The translations under genes and the position numbers were made by a program. A DNA stretch of 64,000 bases from Geothrix limicola (GTDB lineage Bacteria; Acidobacteriota; Holophagae; Holophagales; Holophagaceae), in NCBI RefSeq assembly GCF_030268085.1, contig NZ_BSDE01000006.1, forward strand, positions 62,491 through 126,490. The letters run 5' to 3'. Within the stretch, counting starts at the first letter, position 1; every line of letters begins with the position of its first letter. The notes below the pieces were generated by a model. The model was not told the DNA's origin, made no database searches, and was given only the letters and a program-made list of their open reading frames with translations. Positions 1-50,574 of this stretch are shown one piece after another.

Positions 1-588
1 GAGCCGGCCGCCGGCCTTCAGCACGCGATGGGCCTCGCGGAACACGCGGGGTTTGTCCGTCGTCAGGTTCACGACGCAGTTCGAGATGATGGCGTCCACC
101 GTGCCATCGGCCACGGGCAGGGTTTCGATGTCGCCCAGGCGGAACTCGACGTTCGCGTAGCCGTGGGTCTTCGCGAGGCCGGTGGCCCGCTCGATCATCT
201 GGGGCGTCATGTCGACGCCGATGACGCGGCCTTCGGGACCCACACGCTTCGAAGCGAGGAAGGCGTCGAAACCCGCGCCCGAACCCAGGTCCAGCACAGT
301 CTCGCCGGGCTGCAGCGAGGCCAGGGCGACGGGGTTGCCGCAGCCCAGGCCCAGGTTCGCGCCTTCGGGCACGGTTTCGAGATCCTGAGCCGCGTAGCCC
401 AATTCCAGGCTCGCCTCACCCGCCGAGCAGCACGAGGACGAGGAGGCTGGAGAGGCCGAGCAGCAGCTTGGCCGCGGCTCGGCCTGGGGGTCCGGGGGTG
501 TTTGCGCAGCGAGGGACCCCCGGAGGGAATTGGTCACGAAGCCGGCGTAACGCTCGCGGACGGCGGCCTTGATGGTTTGGGAATCCAT
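1..588 (-). CDS. arsM: Arsenite S-adenosylmethionine methyltransferase ArsM (3' part cut by window edge)
   Basis: Methylates As(III) using SAM. The frame runs from the ATG at 588 to the left edge without a stop (196 codons). Visible are the N-terminal ArsM cysteine pairs (SCCSAS and [10 protein letters not shown], Cys42-43 and Cys53-54), the family motif [14 protein letters not shown], the SAM-binding motif [10 protein letters not shown] and ISNCVVNL, which carries another conserved cysteine. Residues about 21-40 are an extra linker encoded by a dispersed two-hairpin element (453-523), sitting between the start of the protein and the first cysteine pair. It lies 66 bp downstream of an arsR gene on the same strand and is probably cotranscribed and arsenic-induced. 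The C-terminal third is outside the window. Confidence 0.93.
453..523 (-). repeat. Two-hairpin dispersed element, copy A, inside arsM
   Basis: Read on the minus strand: stem CCGGGGGT (523-516), 16-nt loop containing CTGCG, stem ACCCCCGG (499-492), then a CCCCC run and a second hairpin AGGCCGAGC/GCTCGGCCT (485-477 and 461-453). It keeps the arsM reading frame and codes for a proline-rich linker. It shares the invariant first stem and loop length with copies at 34177, 34292, 38049 and 49419. Confidence 0.75.
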
Positions 589-32248: not shown

Positions 32249-33244
32249 ATGCCCGGTTTCATCCCCGTGATCCCCGCCGACCTGGAGCCCACCATCCGTG
32301 GGGTCCTGACCGGCCATGGGGGCGTCCCCCTCGCCTGGGCCCGCTGGGAGCACCCGGAACCCAAGGGCCGGGTGGTCATCTCCCACGGCTATGGCGAGCA
32401 CGGCGAGCGCTACCGGCACACGGCCCACTGGCTGCACAGCCTCGGCTGGTCCGTCTCCAGCATGGACCACCGCGGGTTCGGCCGTTCCGGCGGGATCCGC
32501 GGGGATGCGGTGGGCATCCGGGCCTTCGTGGATGACCTCGCCCTCTTCCTGCGCCAGGAGCGCCGCTACGACGCCGAGCGCACGGGCGCCAAGGCCCGGG
32601 TGGTGGATGGCGTGCCCATGCCCCCCCTGGCCGTCTGCCCCCAGGTGGTGCTGGGCCACAGCTTCGGTGGCCTGGTCGCCCTCCTCACCCTGCTCTGGCA
32701 CGCCGACACCCTGGACGGCCTCATCCTGTCGGCCCCCGCCGTGGCGGTGCGCTCGAACTCCAAGCTGCTGGTGATCCTGTCCCGCTTTCTCCGCTGGTTC
32801 ATGCCCCATCGGCCCCTGCACCTGCATGGCGACAAGAGCCAGGTCTGCTCCGACCCCGTGATCGTCCAGCGCTATGAGGCCGACCCCCTCTGCCACCGCT
32901 GGGCCACCGCCGCCTTCGGGGCCGCCCTAGACGAGGGCCGGGCCGAGGTGCTGCCTTTGGGCCACGAGCTGGACCGCCCCATGCTCCTGCTGGAATCCGA
33001 GACCGACACCATCGTCGATCCGGACGCCTCGGAGGCCCTGTGGTCCGCGGTGCGGCCGGGGCTCCTGGAACGCCACCGGCTGCCCGGCTTCTACCACGAG
33101 ATCTTCCACGACCGGCTCCGCGCCCAGGCTCAGGCCCTGGTGGAGCCCTGGCTCGAGAAGCTGCGCGGGGCCTGGAACCCTTCCCCGCGGAACTCTTCAC
33201 ATCGTCCCGCCATGTCTGTAGTGCTGTCTCCGGAGTCCGCATGA
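32249..33244 (+). CDS. Alpha/beta hydrolase, monoacylglycerol-lipase/lysophospholipase type
   Basis: 331 aa. HGYGEHGERYRHTAHWL and the nucleophile elbow LGHSFGGLVAL are typical of the serine aminopeptidase S33/MGL group; the acid is in LLESETDTIVD and the histidine in PGFYHEIFHD. Probably cleaves monoglycerides or lysophospholipids. Its stop overlaps the start of the BamD-like lipoprotein (ATGA), so they are cotranscribed. Confidence 0.88.
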   Translation: MPGFIPVIPADLEPTIRGVLTGHGGVPLAWARWEHPEPKGRVVISHGYGEHGERYRHTAHWLHSLGWSVSSMDHRGFGRSGGIRGDAVGIRAFVDDLALFLRQERRYDAERTGAKARVVDGVPMPPLAVCPQVVLGHSFGGLVALLTLLWHADTLDGLILSAPAVAVRSNSKLLVILSRFLRWFMPHRPLHLHGDKSQVCSDPVIVQRYEADPLCHRWATAAFGAALDEGRAEVLPLGHELDRPMLLLESETDTIVDPDASEALWSAVRPGLLERHRLPGFYHEIFHDRLRAQAQALVEPWLEKLRGAWNPSPRNSSHRPAMSVVLSPESA

Positions 33245-34170
33245 AGCGCATCCTCACCGCCCTCACCCTGACCGCCGCCCTGGCGGGTCTGGGCCTGGGC
33301 TGCCGCAAACCGAAGACCGTCGACACCAGTGTCTCGGCCGCCCAGCTGCTGGCCACGGCCGACAAGCAGATGAAGCAGGGCAAGTTCACGGATGCCCGCA
33401 CGACCCTGCGGCACCTGGAGCAGTACCTGCCTGGATCCGCAGAGTTCCCCAAGGCCAAGCTCATGCTGGGCGACAGCTTCTTCTTCCAGGGCAGCCCCAG
33501 CTATCCCGAAGCAGAGGTGGAATACAGCAGCTTCCTGAATTATTTCCCCCGCCATGAACTGCGGGACTACGCGATGTACCACCGCGCGCTCTGCCACTTC
33601 TCCTCCATCGAAAGCGCCGAGCGCGACCAGGCCGAAACCCGCAAGGCCCTCGCCGGCTTCCAGGAGCTGCTCACGGAATCCCCGGGCAGCCCCTACGCCG
33701 GGGAGACCCGGGCCAAGATCCTGCAGTGCTGGCGCCGCATCGCCGAGCACGAGCTGGTGGTGAGCATCTTCTATGTCAACACCTACTACTACCCGGGCGC
33801 CGAGCGGCGCCTGAAGAGCCTGCTGGAGACCTACCCCGACTACGTGGATCGCGAGCGGGCCTATTACTACCTGGGCGAGGCCATGCGTCAGCGGCTCGTC
33901 ATGCCGGATGAGCTGGTGGTATTCGGCAAGGAATACGCCGCCAAACTCCAGAAGGAGGACCTGAAGGACCTCACGAAGGAGCAAACGCAGGAATACGGCA
34001 AGGAACTTCTCGTCTTCATCAAGTCCCGCAATGATGGTTACCGGGCCGAAGCCAAGAGCTACTACCAGAAGCTGGTGGAAAGCTATCCGGGCTCCGAGTG
34101 GGCCCGCAAGGCCGCCGACCGCCTCATCACCATGGGCACCAGCGGCGTGAAGGAAGACCTCGACAGTTAA
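33241..34170 (+). CDS. bamD: BamD-like outer membrane assembly lipoprotein
   Basis: 309 aa. Lipobox LAGLGLGCRK followed by TPR-like repeats: YLPGSAEFPKAKLMLGDSFF, YPEAEVEYSSFLNYFPRHE, YYPGAERRLKSLLETYPDY, YYQKLVESYPGSEWARKA. These match the BamD/YfiO five-TPR architecture, which anchors the BAM machine on the periplasmic face of the outer membrane. Slightly longer than E. coli BamD (245 aa). A two-hairpin element begins 7 bp after the stop and probably terminates transcription. Confidence 0.87.
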   Translation: MKRILTALTLTAALAGLGLGCRKPKTVDTSVSAAQLLATADKQMKQGKFTDARTTLRHLEQYLPGSAEFPKAKLMLGDSFFFQGSPSYPEAEVEYSSFLNYFPRHELRDYAMYHRALCHFSSIESAERDQAETRKALAGFQELLTESPGSPYAGETRAKILQCWRRIAEHELVVSIFYVNTYYYPGAERRLKSLLETYPDYVDRERAYYYLGEAMRQRLVMPDELVVFGKEYAAKLQKEDLKDLTKEQTQEYGKELLVFIKSRNDGYRAEAKSYYQKLVESYPGSEWARKAADRLITMGTSGVKEDLDS

Positions 34171-34176
34171 TGCTGT

Positions 34177-34283
34177 CCGGGGGTTCCCCCCGCCACGCAT
34201 GCGTGGCGGGGATCTAGTGACCCGCTGCGCGGACACCCCCGGGCCCCCGCGGCCGGGTCGAGGTAAACTCGCCCCGGCCTTTT
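34177..34283 (+). repeat. Two-hairpin dispersed element, copy B, after bamD
   Basis: CCGGGGGT (34177-34184) and ACCCCCGG (34235-34242) flank an enlarged loop that contains an extra perfect 24-nt palindrome (about 34187-34210) before the usual CCGC-TGC-GCGG apex. The second hairpin (34251-34279) is followed by TTTT and looks like the bamD terminator. The last ~60 bp are near-identical to copy C. Confidence 0.8.
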
Positions 34284-34291
34284 CGATTCTC

Positions 34292-34364
34292 CCGGGGGTT
34301 CCCCGCTGCGCGGACACCCCCGGGCCCCCGCGGCCGGGTCGAGGTAAACTCGCCCCGGCCTTTT
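34292..34364 (+). repeat. Two-hairpin dispersed element, copy C, before aldo/keto reductase gene
   Basis: CCGGGGGT (34292-34299), 16-nt loop with inner stem CCGC-TGC-GCGG, ACCCCCGG (34316-34323), then CCCCCGCG and a second hairpin ending in a T run. In tandem with copy B. It sits 20 bp before the next start codon. Confidence 0.8.
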
Positions 34365-37707: not shown

Positions 37708-38889
37708 ATGGCGGCCCTGTGGGATCTCCCGGCGCCCGAGGCCGGTAGCACCGCGCGCCCCAACGCCGCGGGCCTGGGTCGCGAGGAACTGGCCGCGCTT
37801 CTCGCGGGCATGGGCGAACCCGCCTGGCGCGGCAAGCAGCTATTCTCGGGCCTGCTCCGCCAGCGCTGGACCCGCTGGGAACAGTTCTCGAACCTTGCGA
37901 AAGCCCTGCGCGCGCGCCTGGAAGCCGAGGTGGATCTGGCTTGGCCCGCCATCATCCAAAGTCAATCGTCGGCGGACGGCTCGACGAAGCACGTCTTCGA
38001 GTTGAAGGACGGAAAGCAGGTCGAGGGCGTGCACATGCCCTACGCAGCCCGGGGGTCCGGTCTGCGACCTACACCCCCGGAGCCCCCGCGCCAGACTCAG
38101 GCGCAGCCTGAGTCTGGCTTCGAAGATCTCGATCGCGTGACGCTCTGCCTGTCCAGCCAGGTGGGCTGTGCCATGGGCTGCACCTTCTGCGCCACCGGTC
38201 AGATGGGCATCATCCGCAACCTCAGCGCCGCGGAGATCGTGGGCCAGGTGGTGGCCATGTTGAACCATCACGCGCATCCGCTGGACCGCCCCGTCAACCT
38301 GGTGTTCATGGGCATGGGCGAGCCCCTGCACAACTTCGATCACCTCATGGCCGCCTTCGCGACGCTCACGGATCCCGAAGGGCTCGCCATTCCCCCGCGC
38401 CGCATCACGGTCTCCACGTCGGGTCTCGTGAGCGCCATCGAGCGGCTGGGCACCTACGCCCGGAGGCCCCGACTGGCCCTCAGCCTGAACGGCACCACCG
38501 ACGAGCACCGCTCGCGCATCATGCCCGTGAACCGCGTCTGGAACCTGGAGGCTCTGGCCAGCGCGCTGAGCCGCTTCCCGCTGCAATCCGGCGAGCGCAT
38601 CACCCTCGAATACGTCCTGCTGAAGGGCGTCACCGACAGCCTCGAAGATGGTCGGCGCCTCGCCGCCTTCGCGCGGCGCTTCCCCGCCAAGGTGAATCTG
38701 ATCCCGTTCAATCCCCACGAGGGATCGGGCTTCGAAGCCCCGGAGGAATCGCGCATCAGCGCCCTCTGTCGCCTGCTGTCGGAGGCGGATCTGCCCGTCA
38801 GCGTGCGGCGCAGCCGGGGCCAGGATGTGGCGGGCGCCTGCGGTCAGCTCGTGCGCGAGGGCCAGTCCCGCCATCCGAAACGGATCTGA
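37708..38889 (+). CDS. rlmN: Dual-specificity rRNA/tRNA (adenine-C2)-methyltransferase RlmN
   Basis: 393 aa radical-SAM enzyme that methylates C2 of A2503 in 23S rRNA and A37 of some tRNAs. CxxxCxxC cluster at Cys154, 158 and 161 (CAMGCTFC), VFMGMGEPLHN, STSGLV, and the C-terminal catalytic cysteine in VAGACGQL. Residues about 113-140 (from after VHMPYA to FEDLD) are an extra proline/glutamine-rich insert just before TLCLSSQVGC, encoded by two-hairpin element copy E. The insert falls in a surface loop region before the first cluster strand, so activity is probably retained. Confidence 0.95.
   Translation: MAALWDLPAPEAGSTARPNAAGLGREELAALLAGMGEPAWRGKQLFSGLLRQRWTRWEQFSNLAKALRARLEAEVDLAWPAIIQSQSSADGSTKHVFELKDGKQVEGVHMPYAARGSGLRPTPPEPPRQTQAQPESGFEDLDRVTLCLSSQVGCAMGCTFCATGQMGIIRNLSAAEIVGQVVAMLNHHAHPLDRPVNLVFMGMGEPLHNFDHLMAAFATLTDPEGLAIPPRRITVSTSGLVSAIERLGTYARRPRLALSLNGTTDEHRSRIMPVNRVWNLEALASALSRFPLQSGERITLEYVLLKGVTDSLEDGRRLAAFARRFPAKVNLIPFNPHEGSGFEAPEESRISALCRLLSEADLPVSVRRSRGQDVAGACGQLVREGQSRHPKRI
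38049..38117 (+). repeat. Two-hairpin dispersed element, copy E, inside rlmN
   Basis: CCGGGGGT (38049-38056), 16-nt loop with inner stem GGTC-TGC-GACC, ACCCCCGG (38073-38080), CCCCCGCG, then a perfect 11-bp hairpin (38091-38101 and 38107-38117). 69 bp, exactly 23 codons, preserving the rlmN frame. Confidence 0.78.
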
Positions 38890-48759: not shown

Positions 48760-49071
48760 ATGTTCGCAATCATCAAGACCGGCGGGAAGCAGTACCGCGT
48801 GGCCGAGGGCGATGTCCTCCGCGTGGAGCTGCTCGAGAAGGATCCCAAGCAGGCCGTGACCTTTGAGGAAGTCCTCCTCATCGACAACAACGGCGATCTG
48901 AAGGTGGGCAAGCCCACCGTGGCCGGCGCCAAGGTCGAGGCCGAGGTCATCACCCATGACCGCGCCAAGAAGGTGATCATCTTCAAGAAGAAGCGCACCA
49001 CCACCTACCAGCGCACCCAGGGCCACCGCCAGGGCTACACGGAAGTCCGCATCAAGGCCATCAAGGCCTAG
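48760..49071 (+). CDS. rplU: 50S ribosomal protein bL21
   Basis: 103 aa, full-length L21: MFAIIKTGGKQYRVAEGDVL, VLLIDNNGDLKVGKPTVAGA, and the conserved C-terminal TTYQRTQGHRQGYTEVRI. AAAGAGG precedes the ATG. Begins the rplU-rpmA-obgE-nadD-rsfS block. Confidence 0.97.
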   Translation: MFAIIKTGGKQYRVAEGDVLRVELLEKDPKQAVTFEEVLLIDNNGDLKVGKPTVAGAKVEAEVITHDRAKKVIIFKKKRTTTYQRTQGHRQGYTEVRIKAIKA

Positions 49072-49096
49072 GTTTTCGCCGCAGGCGAAAACCTAG
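49068..49096 (+). terminator. Hairpin between rplU and rpmA
   Basis: A 13-bp perfect stem with a GCA loop (49068-49080 and 49084-49096) starts in the rplU stop codon. It has no clear T tract; it may attenuate or protect the upstream mRNA end, and rpmA is likely still transcribed. Confidence 0.6.
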
Positions 49097-49151: not shown

Positions 49152-49412
49152 ATGGCTCATAAAAAAGGCGTCGGTTCCAGCCGCAACGGTCGTGATTCCC
49201 ATTCCCAGCGCCTCGGCGTGAAGGAATTCGGCGGTGAGCAGGTCACCGGCGGCTCCATCCTCGTCCGCCAGCGCGGCACCAAGTTCAAGGCCGGCATCAA
49301 CGTCGGCATGGGCAAGGACCACACCCTGTTCGCCCTCATAGACGGCAAGGTTCGTTTCCAGGACAAGGGCCAGAGCGGCCGCTTCATCCACATCGATCCC
49401 ATCGAGGGTTGA
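49152..49412 (+). CDS. rpmA: 50S ribosomal protein bL27
   Basis: 86 aa. [20 protein letters not shown] and [20 protein letters not shown] are diagnostic. The N-terminus reaches the peptidyl-transferase centre. AGAGG precedes the ATG. Confidence 0.97.
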
Positions 49413-49418
49413 TGTTGT

Positions 49419-49487
49419 CCGGGGGTTCCGCGCTGCGCGCACACCCCCGAGACCCCCGCGCATAGGCCGGGCGTAGCCCGGCCTATG
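49419..49487 (+). repeat. Two-hairpin dispersed element, copy D, after rpmA
   Basis: CCGGGGGT (49419-49426), 16-nt loop with inner stem GCGC-TGC-GCGC, ACCCCCGA, CCCCCGCG, and a perfect 12-bp hairpin (49461-49472 and 49476-49487). It begins 6 bp after the rpmA stop; hairpin 2 is the likely rpmA terminator. Confidence 0.8.
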
Positions 49488-49524
49488 CTTATGCCTCCCC
49501 GATCTTCCGCAACCAAAGGTTCAA

Positions 49525-50574
49525 ATGTTCCTTGATCACGTCCAGCTTCGCGTCGCCGCCGGTCACGGCGGTTCCGGCGCCATGAGCTTCCGCCGCGAGA
49601 AGTTCGCCCCCGAGGGCGGGCCCGACGGCGGCGACGGCGGCAAGGGCGGCTCCATCCTCTTCCGGGCCAACAAGGCCTTGAACACCCTCAATCCCTACCG
49701 CCACAAGCGCGAGTACAGCGCCGAGCGCGGTCGCCAGGGCGAAGGCTGCATGCGCCACGGCAAGGACGGCCTGGACATCGTGCTGGAAGTGCCCCTCGGC
49801 ACCGTCATCCGCGACAGCGACACCGGCGAGATGCTGGCCGAGCTGATGGCCCACGGTGAAGAGGTCTGCGTGGCCCGCGGCGGCCGCGGCGGCCTGGGCA
49901 ACACGAATTTCAAGAGCTCCACCAACCGTACACCCCGCCACCACCAGCCCGGCGAGGACGGTGAGGAGCGCAACCTCGATCTGGAGCTCAAGCTCATCGC
50001 AGACGTAGGCCTGGTGGGCTTCCCCAATGCGGGCAAGAGCACCCTGGTGAGCCGCCTCAGCGCGGCCCGGCCCAAGATCGCCAACTACCCCTTCACCACC
50101 CTGGAACCCCAGCTCGGCGTCGTGAGCCTGGATCGCTTCGGCGGCGACCTCCTGGATTCCTGGGTCATCGCCGACATCCCCGGCCTCATCGAAGGCGCCG
50201 CCAGCGGCGCGGGACTGGGCATCCAGTTCCTCCGCCACGTGGAGCGCACGCGCATGCTGCTGCAGCTGGTGGATCTTTCCGATCCCGTCGAAGAGCCCGC
50301 CGATGCCATCCGCATCATCGAAGGCGAGGTGGAGGCCTTCAGCCCCGTGCTGGCCGCCAAGCCCCGCTGGCTCGTGGGCACCAAGCTGGACGCCCTCCAG
50401 GACGACAGCCGCCGCGAGGCCTTCGTCGCCCTCTGCGAGGCCCGGGGCCAGAAGCCCATCTTCATCTCCGGCGTCACCGGCGAGGGGCTCCGCGAGCTGG
50501 CCTTCGCCGTGGATGATGCCCTCAAGGTCATGGCCGGCCAGAAGGAAGCGGCCCCCAAGGACGAGGCCTGGTAG
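49525..50574 (+). CDS. obgE: GTPase ObgE/CgtA
   Basis: 349 aa. Glycine-rich Obg domain ([30 protein letters not shown]) then a G domain with GFPNAGKST (G1), DIPGLIEGA (G3) and GTKLDAL (G4). Ribosome maturation and stress GTPase. The ATG at 49525 follows AAAGG. Overlaps nadD by one base. Confidence 0.97.

Follow-up and report, generated by a model that had tools for sequence, protein, structure and literature searches.

Two-hairpin elements behind stop codons in Geothrix and related genera

We describe a family of two-hairpin elements that is dispersed through Geothrix genomes and nearly always stands directly behind the stop codon of a gene, in the orientation of that gene. It was noticed in Geothrix limicola, in a stretch of 64,000 nucleotides that we call the window (contig NZ_BSDE01000006.1, positions 62,491 to 126,490). 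Pooled over all copies outside called genes, 162 of 166 have their upstream gene in sense and 91 of these 162 begin exactly 6 nt behind its stop, in counts that are not independent because the copies are partly orthologous and one was counted twice. We give about even chances to the reading that this is a spreading palindromic element, similar to REPs and RPEs, which is kept as a stop-proximal structure in 3' UTRs and between cistrons; we infer both the function and the movement. Interspersed palindromes are known in bacteria, and this family has a preferred stop-codon address, a near-fixed orientation, members in several genera and an in-frame copy in an rRNA methyltransferase.

Architecture and distribution

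The preliminary description of this DNA placed five copies in the window, and we read all five there with the arm CCGGGGGT, a loop, the arm ACCCCCGG, a C run and a second hairpin (Table 1), except that the C-rich 3' arm of hairpin 1 in the copy at 49419 is ACCCCCGA in place of ACCCCCGG (arm end CCCCCGAG). The inner stems closed on TGC that it gave (CCGC/GCGG, GCGC/GCGC, GGTC/GACC and TCGC/GCAA) are there as well, as are the tandem arrangement, with 34292 a second copy behind 34177, and the extra 24-nt palindrome in the loop of the 34177 copy. Orthologous sites differ in several modules, of which this palindrome is one. The copies at 34177 and 49419 stand directly behind stop codons, and those at 453-523 (minus strand) and 38049 lie in frame inside genes.

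Table 1. Parts of the five element copies in the window, with adjoining genes.
Feature	Position	Strand	Basis
Copy 1 hairpin 2, imperfect	453..485	-	sequence, fold
Copy 1 C-run spacer ACCCCC	486..491	-	
Copy 1 hairpin 1, in-frame part of an arsM-like gene (588-1 minus, incomplete at window edge)	492..523	-	
Stop codon TAA of BamD-like gene (33241-34170) and 6-nt leader TGCTGT	34168..34176	+	sequence; YfiO family match
Copy 2 hairpin 1, long form, loop with 24-nt palindrome (34188-34211), then GATCTAGTGAC	34177..34242	+	sequence, fold
Copy 2 C-run spacer GCCCCCGC	34243..34250	+	
Copy 2 hairpin 2, then TTTT	34251..34279	+	sequence, fold
Copy 3 (tandem) hairpin 1, short form	34292..34323	+	sequence, fold
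Copy 3 C-run spacer	34324..34331	+	
Copy 3 hairpin 2, sequence identical to that of copy 2	34332..34360	+	
Gene downstream of copy 3, aldo/keto-reductase-like	start 34384		
Copy 4 hairpin 1, in-frame part of rlmN (37708-38889 +), encodes RGSGLRPTPPE	38049..38080	+	
Copy 4 C-run spacer AGCCCCCGC	38081..38089	+	
Copy 4 hairpin 2, 13-bp stem, 3-nt loop, translated in frame	38090..38118	+	
Stop codon TGA of rpmA (49152-49412) and 6-nt leader TGTTGT	49410..49418	+	
Copy 5 hairpin 1, between rpmA and obgE (49525-50574)	49419..49450	+	
Copy 5 C-run spacer GACCCCCGC	49451..49459	+	
Copy 5 hairpin 2, 13-bp stem without mismatch, loop GTA	49460..49488	+	

In the consensus, the stop codon is followed by the leader TGYTST (61 copies at 6 nt from the stop), hairpin 1, an unpaired RCCCC(C)GCG box, hairpin 2 and a T-rich tail. 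Hairpin 1 has the arms CCGGGGGT and ACCCCCGG, a G5/C5 stem, a variable apex and an inner GCGC-TGC-GCGC stem. Among 100 distinct copies, 61 have a hairpin 2 of 13 bp with a 3-nt loop; the arms of hairpin 2 covary and its triloop is NNA, with the terminal A in most copies. This loop and the CCCCGCG box are strongly conserved. Some C-type copies have CTGCCA-like tails behind hairpin 2.

The apex of hairpin 1 carries modules of several kinds: a 10-nt pentamer expansion, a GCATGC palindrome with ATCTARG (as at 34177), and a module of about 60 nt that is also found alone elsewhere. Modules of +10 and +34 nt shift the reading frame, and for this reason we dropped the idea of a conserved small ORF starting from an ATG that overlaps TGATG or TAATG. 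At some gene ends the element forms tandem arrays (L005, L008 and L015, with unit lengths of about 80, 93 and 128), and within each array the hairpin-2 arms are identical or nearly so.

In the 4.23-Mb genome (20 contigs) we found the pattern CCGGGGGTN{12,40}ACCCCCGG 24 times and a reversed-pattern control once. A covariance model of 21 copies from this genome gave 59 matches in it at E<=1, 51 of them at E<=0.002. In a sample of 41 genomes the pattern was found in this genome, in 24 of 24 other Geothrix and in 1 of 16 genomes of other genera, this last being an 11.6-Mb genome with two chance-like matches. The covariance model matched 47 of 47 Geothrix genomes with 4 to 53 matches each, numbers that are lower bounds since filters were stricter and at most 95 candidates were scored per genome. 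When we searched 297 genomes of the phylum, scoring at most 15 candidates in each, at least 23 matched: 21 Geothrix, G208 from another genus of the same family, and, weakly, G272.

Divergent forms of the element are present in three other genera of the family (G208, G169 and G320), the matches in G169 and G320 looking genuine by reading. Forms in G208 have hairpin-1 feet CC/GG, GT/AC or CT/AG and a box near CCCCGCG, from which one form (L295) deviates. A second model that included the G208 forms matched 4 of 25 genomes. Three further sampled genera of the family (G152, G230 and G328) gave no match, and we judged by reading that the weak matches in G272 and G065 are not family members. The preliminary description had proposed a dispersed family and a covariance-model search of the genome and its relatives as the way to check it; that search returned many more copies in both, with covarying pairs.

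The window has no match in Rfam at the gathering score, so a known RNA family was dropped as a candidate. The copy at 49410-49496 had no match in phages and plasmids and one exact hairpin-1 sequence had none in viral contigs, and on these single-copy searches we also dropped carriage by phages or plasmids. We found no earlier description of the element in the Geothrix and Holophaga literature; this is weak evidence of absence, as subscription journals fell mostly outside the coverage.

Position behind stop codons

Gene contexts were taken from a simple gene caller of this analysis. The first set held 107 copies from the G. limicola genome, three syntenic 200-kb stretches and 28 loci elsewhere. 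The G. limicola genome gave 50 copies (of the 59 matches at E<=1 plus pattern finds); 29 of 32 listed matches were used, three fragments inside longer elements being dropped; L092 was left out, and G045 C3:75091 is the same as L095 and was counted twice. Outside called genes lay 105 of the 107 copies, and the upstream gene was in sense for 104 of these 105. Between stop codon and hairpin 1 there were exactly 6 nt in 61 of the 104, and from 1 to 12 nt in 90. Most of the remaining 14 stand second or third in a tandem array, and the 14 also include the arsM copy; this is really intragenic and was tallied as outside because the caller began the gene too late. For L058, L285 and L291, which were called inside a gene, the call was taken as is.

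The same placement was seen in a new set of loci, for which 63 of 74 matches were used (39 Geothrix, 24 G208). The 39 Geothrix loci had 37 copies in sense, 20 at 6 nt and 34 within 12 nt, and G208 had 21 of 22 in sense, 10 at 6 nt and 15 within 12 nt. The four non-sense copies among the pooled 166 are three between divergent genes and one with an antisense upstream gene; two of the four (L327 and L345) show a stop triplet in the expected position, where the caller may have missed a gene. Candidates from a third and a fourth genus (L357 and L358) also start 6 nt behind a stop. The stop codon is the host gene's own: L27 has the same last residue in species without the element. The preliminary description was right that the copies are dispersed, and it overlooked the main regularity in their locations, which is that they stand in sense directly behind a stop codon.

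Hosts in the G. limicola genome include S15, L24, L27, two EF-G-type factors, CysRS, citrate-synthase-like and succinyl-CoA-ligase-like proteins, and SecF-type, Fur and BamD-type proteins. Judged from this list, they look rich in translation genes. For this naming 30 of 33 upstream genes were scanned with Pfam (3 of the 30 without a match), L27 was named by NCBIfam and two short ones were left out.

The gene downstream is codirectional for 64 of the 105 copies and convergent for 40, and 1 copy lies between divergent genes. These numbers bear on the idea that the element is an ordinary intrinsic terminator, made of hairpin 2 and the T tail with an accessory upstream hairpin, and present simply because transcripts end there. 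Such a terminator also has a GC-rich hairpin and then T-rich sequence at gene ends, and the sequence behind hairpin 2 is often T-rich (mean 3.93 T in 8 nt). In its favour are also the 40 copies between convergent genes. However, start codons of codirectional genes often follow hairpin 2 by 7-60 nt, the nearest by 7-29 nt, and copies sit inside rplU-rpmA-obgE, all of which argues against an obligate terminator. Other terminator-like hairpins of the same genomes differ from hairpin 2 in sequence and loop. Unlike intrinsic terminators, the element is a dispersed sequence family with an extra upstream hairpin, a preferred spacing from the stop and no G-U preference in hairpin 2 (see below), and a plain terminator would leave hairpin 1, the leader and the C box unexplained. 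We consider this explanation quite improbable.

In-frame copies and turnover between species

Clear in-frame cases number only 2 among the 50 copies handled from the G. limicola genome, and the in-frame copies are free of stops. The copy at 38049 is translated inside RlmN (TIGR00048, 330.4 bits, cut-off 290), shortly before the radical-SAM cysteines, and that at 453-523 inside a protein resembling arsenite methyltransferases (NF008823, 248.5 bits, slightly below the cut-off of 263; the gene continues past the window end).

We read rlmN in those 30 of 47 genomes where it scored best, a selection biased towards filled genes, since the query itself includes the insert. In 13 of these genes the insert stands at one common place, and the sequence of the other 17 is continuous there (MPYxDR); of the 17 genomes beyond these 30, several have rlmN genes that look empty from match coordinates. 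In the rpmA-obgE spacer, 21 of the 30 species that we read contain the element and 9 have other hairpins or sequence instead, so the empty sites that the preliminary description had suggested looking for in relatives do exist. In the 9 filled rlmN genes for which we read the DNA, the inner stem is GGTC-YGC-GACC or a near variant, and this common stem makes a single origin of the rlmN insert likely. Six of the 13 filled genes have 2-4 tandem units of 26 codons, counted by hairpin 1. The type strain Geothrix fermentans DSM 14018 is one of the species whose rlmN carries an in-frame element. On an obgE tree of 20 rows, 14 with known rlmN state, that state changes 4 times, and at least 2 of the changes are forced by well-supported branches. 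The hairpin-2 arms in rlmN mostly still pair although the encoded residues differ. Split matches point to possible further in-frame inserts in rlmN, near residue 195 in G001, G009, G050, G054 and G057, and near residue 340 in G011, G014 and G048.

Turnover is also visible over a 200-kb syntenic stretch of three species (G006, G018 and G045). Most elements there are at common positions, with flanks mostly 90-98% identical, and a few sites are without the element in one or two of the species. At the same sites hairpin 1 varies in its apical modules, and both arms of hairpin 2 are often altered; in one case both arms have been replaced, and the flanks of the arm-exchanging species are 92-97% identical. 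Since most positions are common to the three species, the family is not simply hopping at random. The mobility suggested earlier therefore survives as presence and absence between species.

On the obgE tree, the rpmA-obgE spacer is element-free in one member each of the sister pairs G056/G057, G009/G054 and G011/G001, and the spacers of G001 and G043 hold the element. The 9 sites without the element have CACGGAG- or CACGAAG-type hairpins or other sequence. In G008, G009, G011, G020, G049 and G056 a large hairpin repeat (CCACGGAG..CACGGAG.. or CACGAAG type) takes the place of the element. At 49067-49096 of the window a different hairpin (CTAGGTTTTCGCC-GCA-GGCGAAAACCTAG) overlaps the end of rplU, in a spacer where other species have the element.

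These observations can be read as the work of a selfish mobile palindrome, similar to RPEs or MITEs and without a host function, that inserts beside TRA-type sequences while selection spares the stop-proximal and in-frame copies. In-frame copies with empty orthologues, tandem arrays, the uneven copy number and other hairpins in its place in sister species would all fit. So would the shortage of TAG among the stops before the 61 copies at 6 nt (TGA 41, TAA 16, TAG 4) compared with 649 called genes (TGA 373, TAG 214, TAA 62), a shortage that is weaker in the new loci (7/34 and 2/15). However, a neutral inserter is expected antisense, between divergent genes and at random distances, and 3 divergent placements and 1 antisense among 166 copies are far from that. 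Most positions in the 200-kb stretch are common to the species, and the C box is kept across genera. We read empty and filled rlmN sites side by side and recognised no terminal inverted repeats or target duplications. We also found no linked transposase, the one family covered being Y1 (PF01797), which is in only 5 of 47 Geothrix genomes, so that we rejected mobilisation of the Y1/RAYT kind as a general cause; the G. limicola genome has no more than a partial match (profile 2-36 of 121). Taking both sides together, we hold a purely selfish element to be possible but somewhat unlikely. As to the Y1 (IS200-type) matches themselves, G055 has five of 130.7 bits and G020 has six of 126.9 bits and one partial; these copies are apparently unrelated to the presence of the element.

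Known repeat classes share some of these features. Like small MITEs and ERIC sequences, the element is small, mostly non-coding, multi-copy and dispersed, but its orientation is strict and the terminal repeats and target duplications of those elements were not recognised. RPEs, as described in PMC10969869, are palindromic repeats that insert into genes without breaking the frame and are translated along with them. The Geothrix element resembles the Rickettsia RPE in its in-frame entry into unrelated protein genes (here rlmN and arsM, a minority of copies); unlike it, most copies lie outside genes behind stop codons. The encoded peptide is conserved within rlmN only, and a conserved peptide, which marks RPEs, is lacking elsewhere because apical modules shift the frame. 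The REP/BIME repeats of enterobacteria are also short dispersed palindromes in 3' regions, outside genes and often near stop codons. The REP hairpin foot has a GTAG/GGAG tetranucleotide head. The element has the leader TGYTST in place of a GTAG head, consists of two different hairpins around a C box and has no general link to Y1/RAYT. Proximity to the stop also differs, with 90 of 104 element copies within 12 nt and 446 of 4072 E. coli REPs within 15 nt according to PMC12306157, where such stop-proximal REPs are reported to stall ribosomes; an earlier study quoted there counted 260 of 496 REPs close to a stop.

Pairing of the hairpins and possible roles

The five window copies were folded as RNA, and their z-scores lie between -3.48 and -4.64. 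For copy 1 the best fold has the G run paired with the C box and not with the 3' arm of hairpin 1. A switch in which the 5' arm pairs with the C box is possible in Geothrix; we did not adopt it, since the C run is shorter in many G208 forms.

In the alignment of 21 G. limicola copies, 94.2% of cells pair, against a shuffled mean of 80.1%, and at most 50.8% pair when the structures are slid by 1-3 columns. Changes on both sides are found in 14 of 25 pairs, with 11 of the 13 pairs of hairpin 2 among them, and there are 71 double-changed cells against 8 one-sided. The covariation that had been claimed for the window copies is therefore upheld, and it extends to 36 copies from two genera, in an alignment that was fitted to the covariance model, which favours pairing: 95.4% of cells pair, 18 of 25 pairs change on both sides, all three helices covary, and 162 cells are double-changed (44.2 in shuffles) and 7 one-sided.

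If pairing in the sense RNA is what is selected, G-U should be tolerated above A-C. The 146 distinct hairpin-2 sequences gave 1191 Watson-Crick pairs, 24 G-T, 23 A-C and 76 of other kinds; for 59 further terminator-like hairpins from these genomes the numbers are 345, 33, 11 and 24, the family being scored over 12 pairs and the controls over 11. For G-T against A-C the two groups differ at p=0.03 (Fisher), with rows that are not independent. A smaller test went in the same direction (family 1 G-T and 13 mismatches, others 21 and 18). Pairing of hairpin 2 is thus upheld without a wobble preference, which fits upkeep or copying of the palindrome at the DNA level or a very strict selection for stability. 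For hairpin 2, upkeep at the DNA level is a serious alternative to selection on RNA. Of the earlier statement that the covariation indicates selection on RNA or DNA structure, the covariation stands and its sole reading as selection does not.

In its full form this alternative holds that the perfect pairing comes from a DNA process, such as template-switch correction of quasi-palindromes or copying from other elements, and not from selection on the hairpins. The large excess of double over one-sided changes in both alignments is in line with it, as are the lack of preference for G-T and the exchange of both arms between species with closely similar flanks. In the rpmA-obgE spacer the search pattern itself dictated the inner pairs, which leaves the four outer ones as evidence; all four are Watson-Crick in 21 of 21 species, although three of the four vary. 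Mutation does not, however, account for the stop-codon placement or the conserved C box, and the aligned rows are related and not independent. As an explanation of the family we think a DNA process alone very improbable.

This brings us back to the preferred reading, a spreading element kept as a stop-proximal structure. Its placement and orientation argue that it acts within the transcript as translation terminates. At 6 nt from the stop codon, a hairpin would be in contact with the site where mRNA enters the terminating ribosome. Hairpin 1 may therefore begin at that entry site, and the element could stall the ribosome or shield the 3' end of the reading frame. By analogy with stop-proximal E. 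coli REPs, it might also block 3'-to-5' decay and set the expression of the upstream cistron apart from that of the downstream one, and hairpin 2 would be a barrier or weak terminator that is not obligate. The element would spread, to judge from sites filled in some species and empty in others, by tandem multiplication and with occasional in-frame intragenic copies. Against such a role are the wobble-free pairing of hairpin 2, which is odd for a function purely at the RNA level, the best fold of copy 1 with its other partner for the G run, and the speed with which modules and arms are replaced at orthologous sites. With 4 to 53 matches per genome as lower bounds, no single copy need be essential.

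We also entertain the idea, which we think unlikely, that these are members of a termination-coupled class, in which the structure, from its place 6 nt behind the stop, senses or modulates the ribosome as it terminates on many housekeeping genes. The palindromes would be kept free of mismatches and copied anew by a process that uses DNA or transcript as its template and itself targets gene ends. If so, a single machinery would account for the position relative to stops, for the strict orientation and for pairing without wobble. Whatever its role, the element is a clean natural experiment on how a hairpin behind a stop affects termination, mRNA ends and operon balance; it also lets the upkeep of perfect palindromes be tested, and a named type strain, DSM 14018, carries it.

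A separate dispersed hairpin, CTCCNNNN...TCCCRCTCGC...GGANNNNGGAG and then CCTCC, is found at L175:6733-6991, L180:14925-15047 and L185:8950-9073, and it is also nested in hairpin 1 of long copies of the element.
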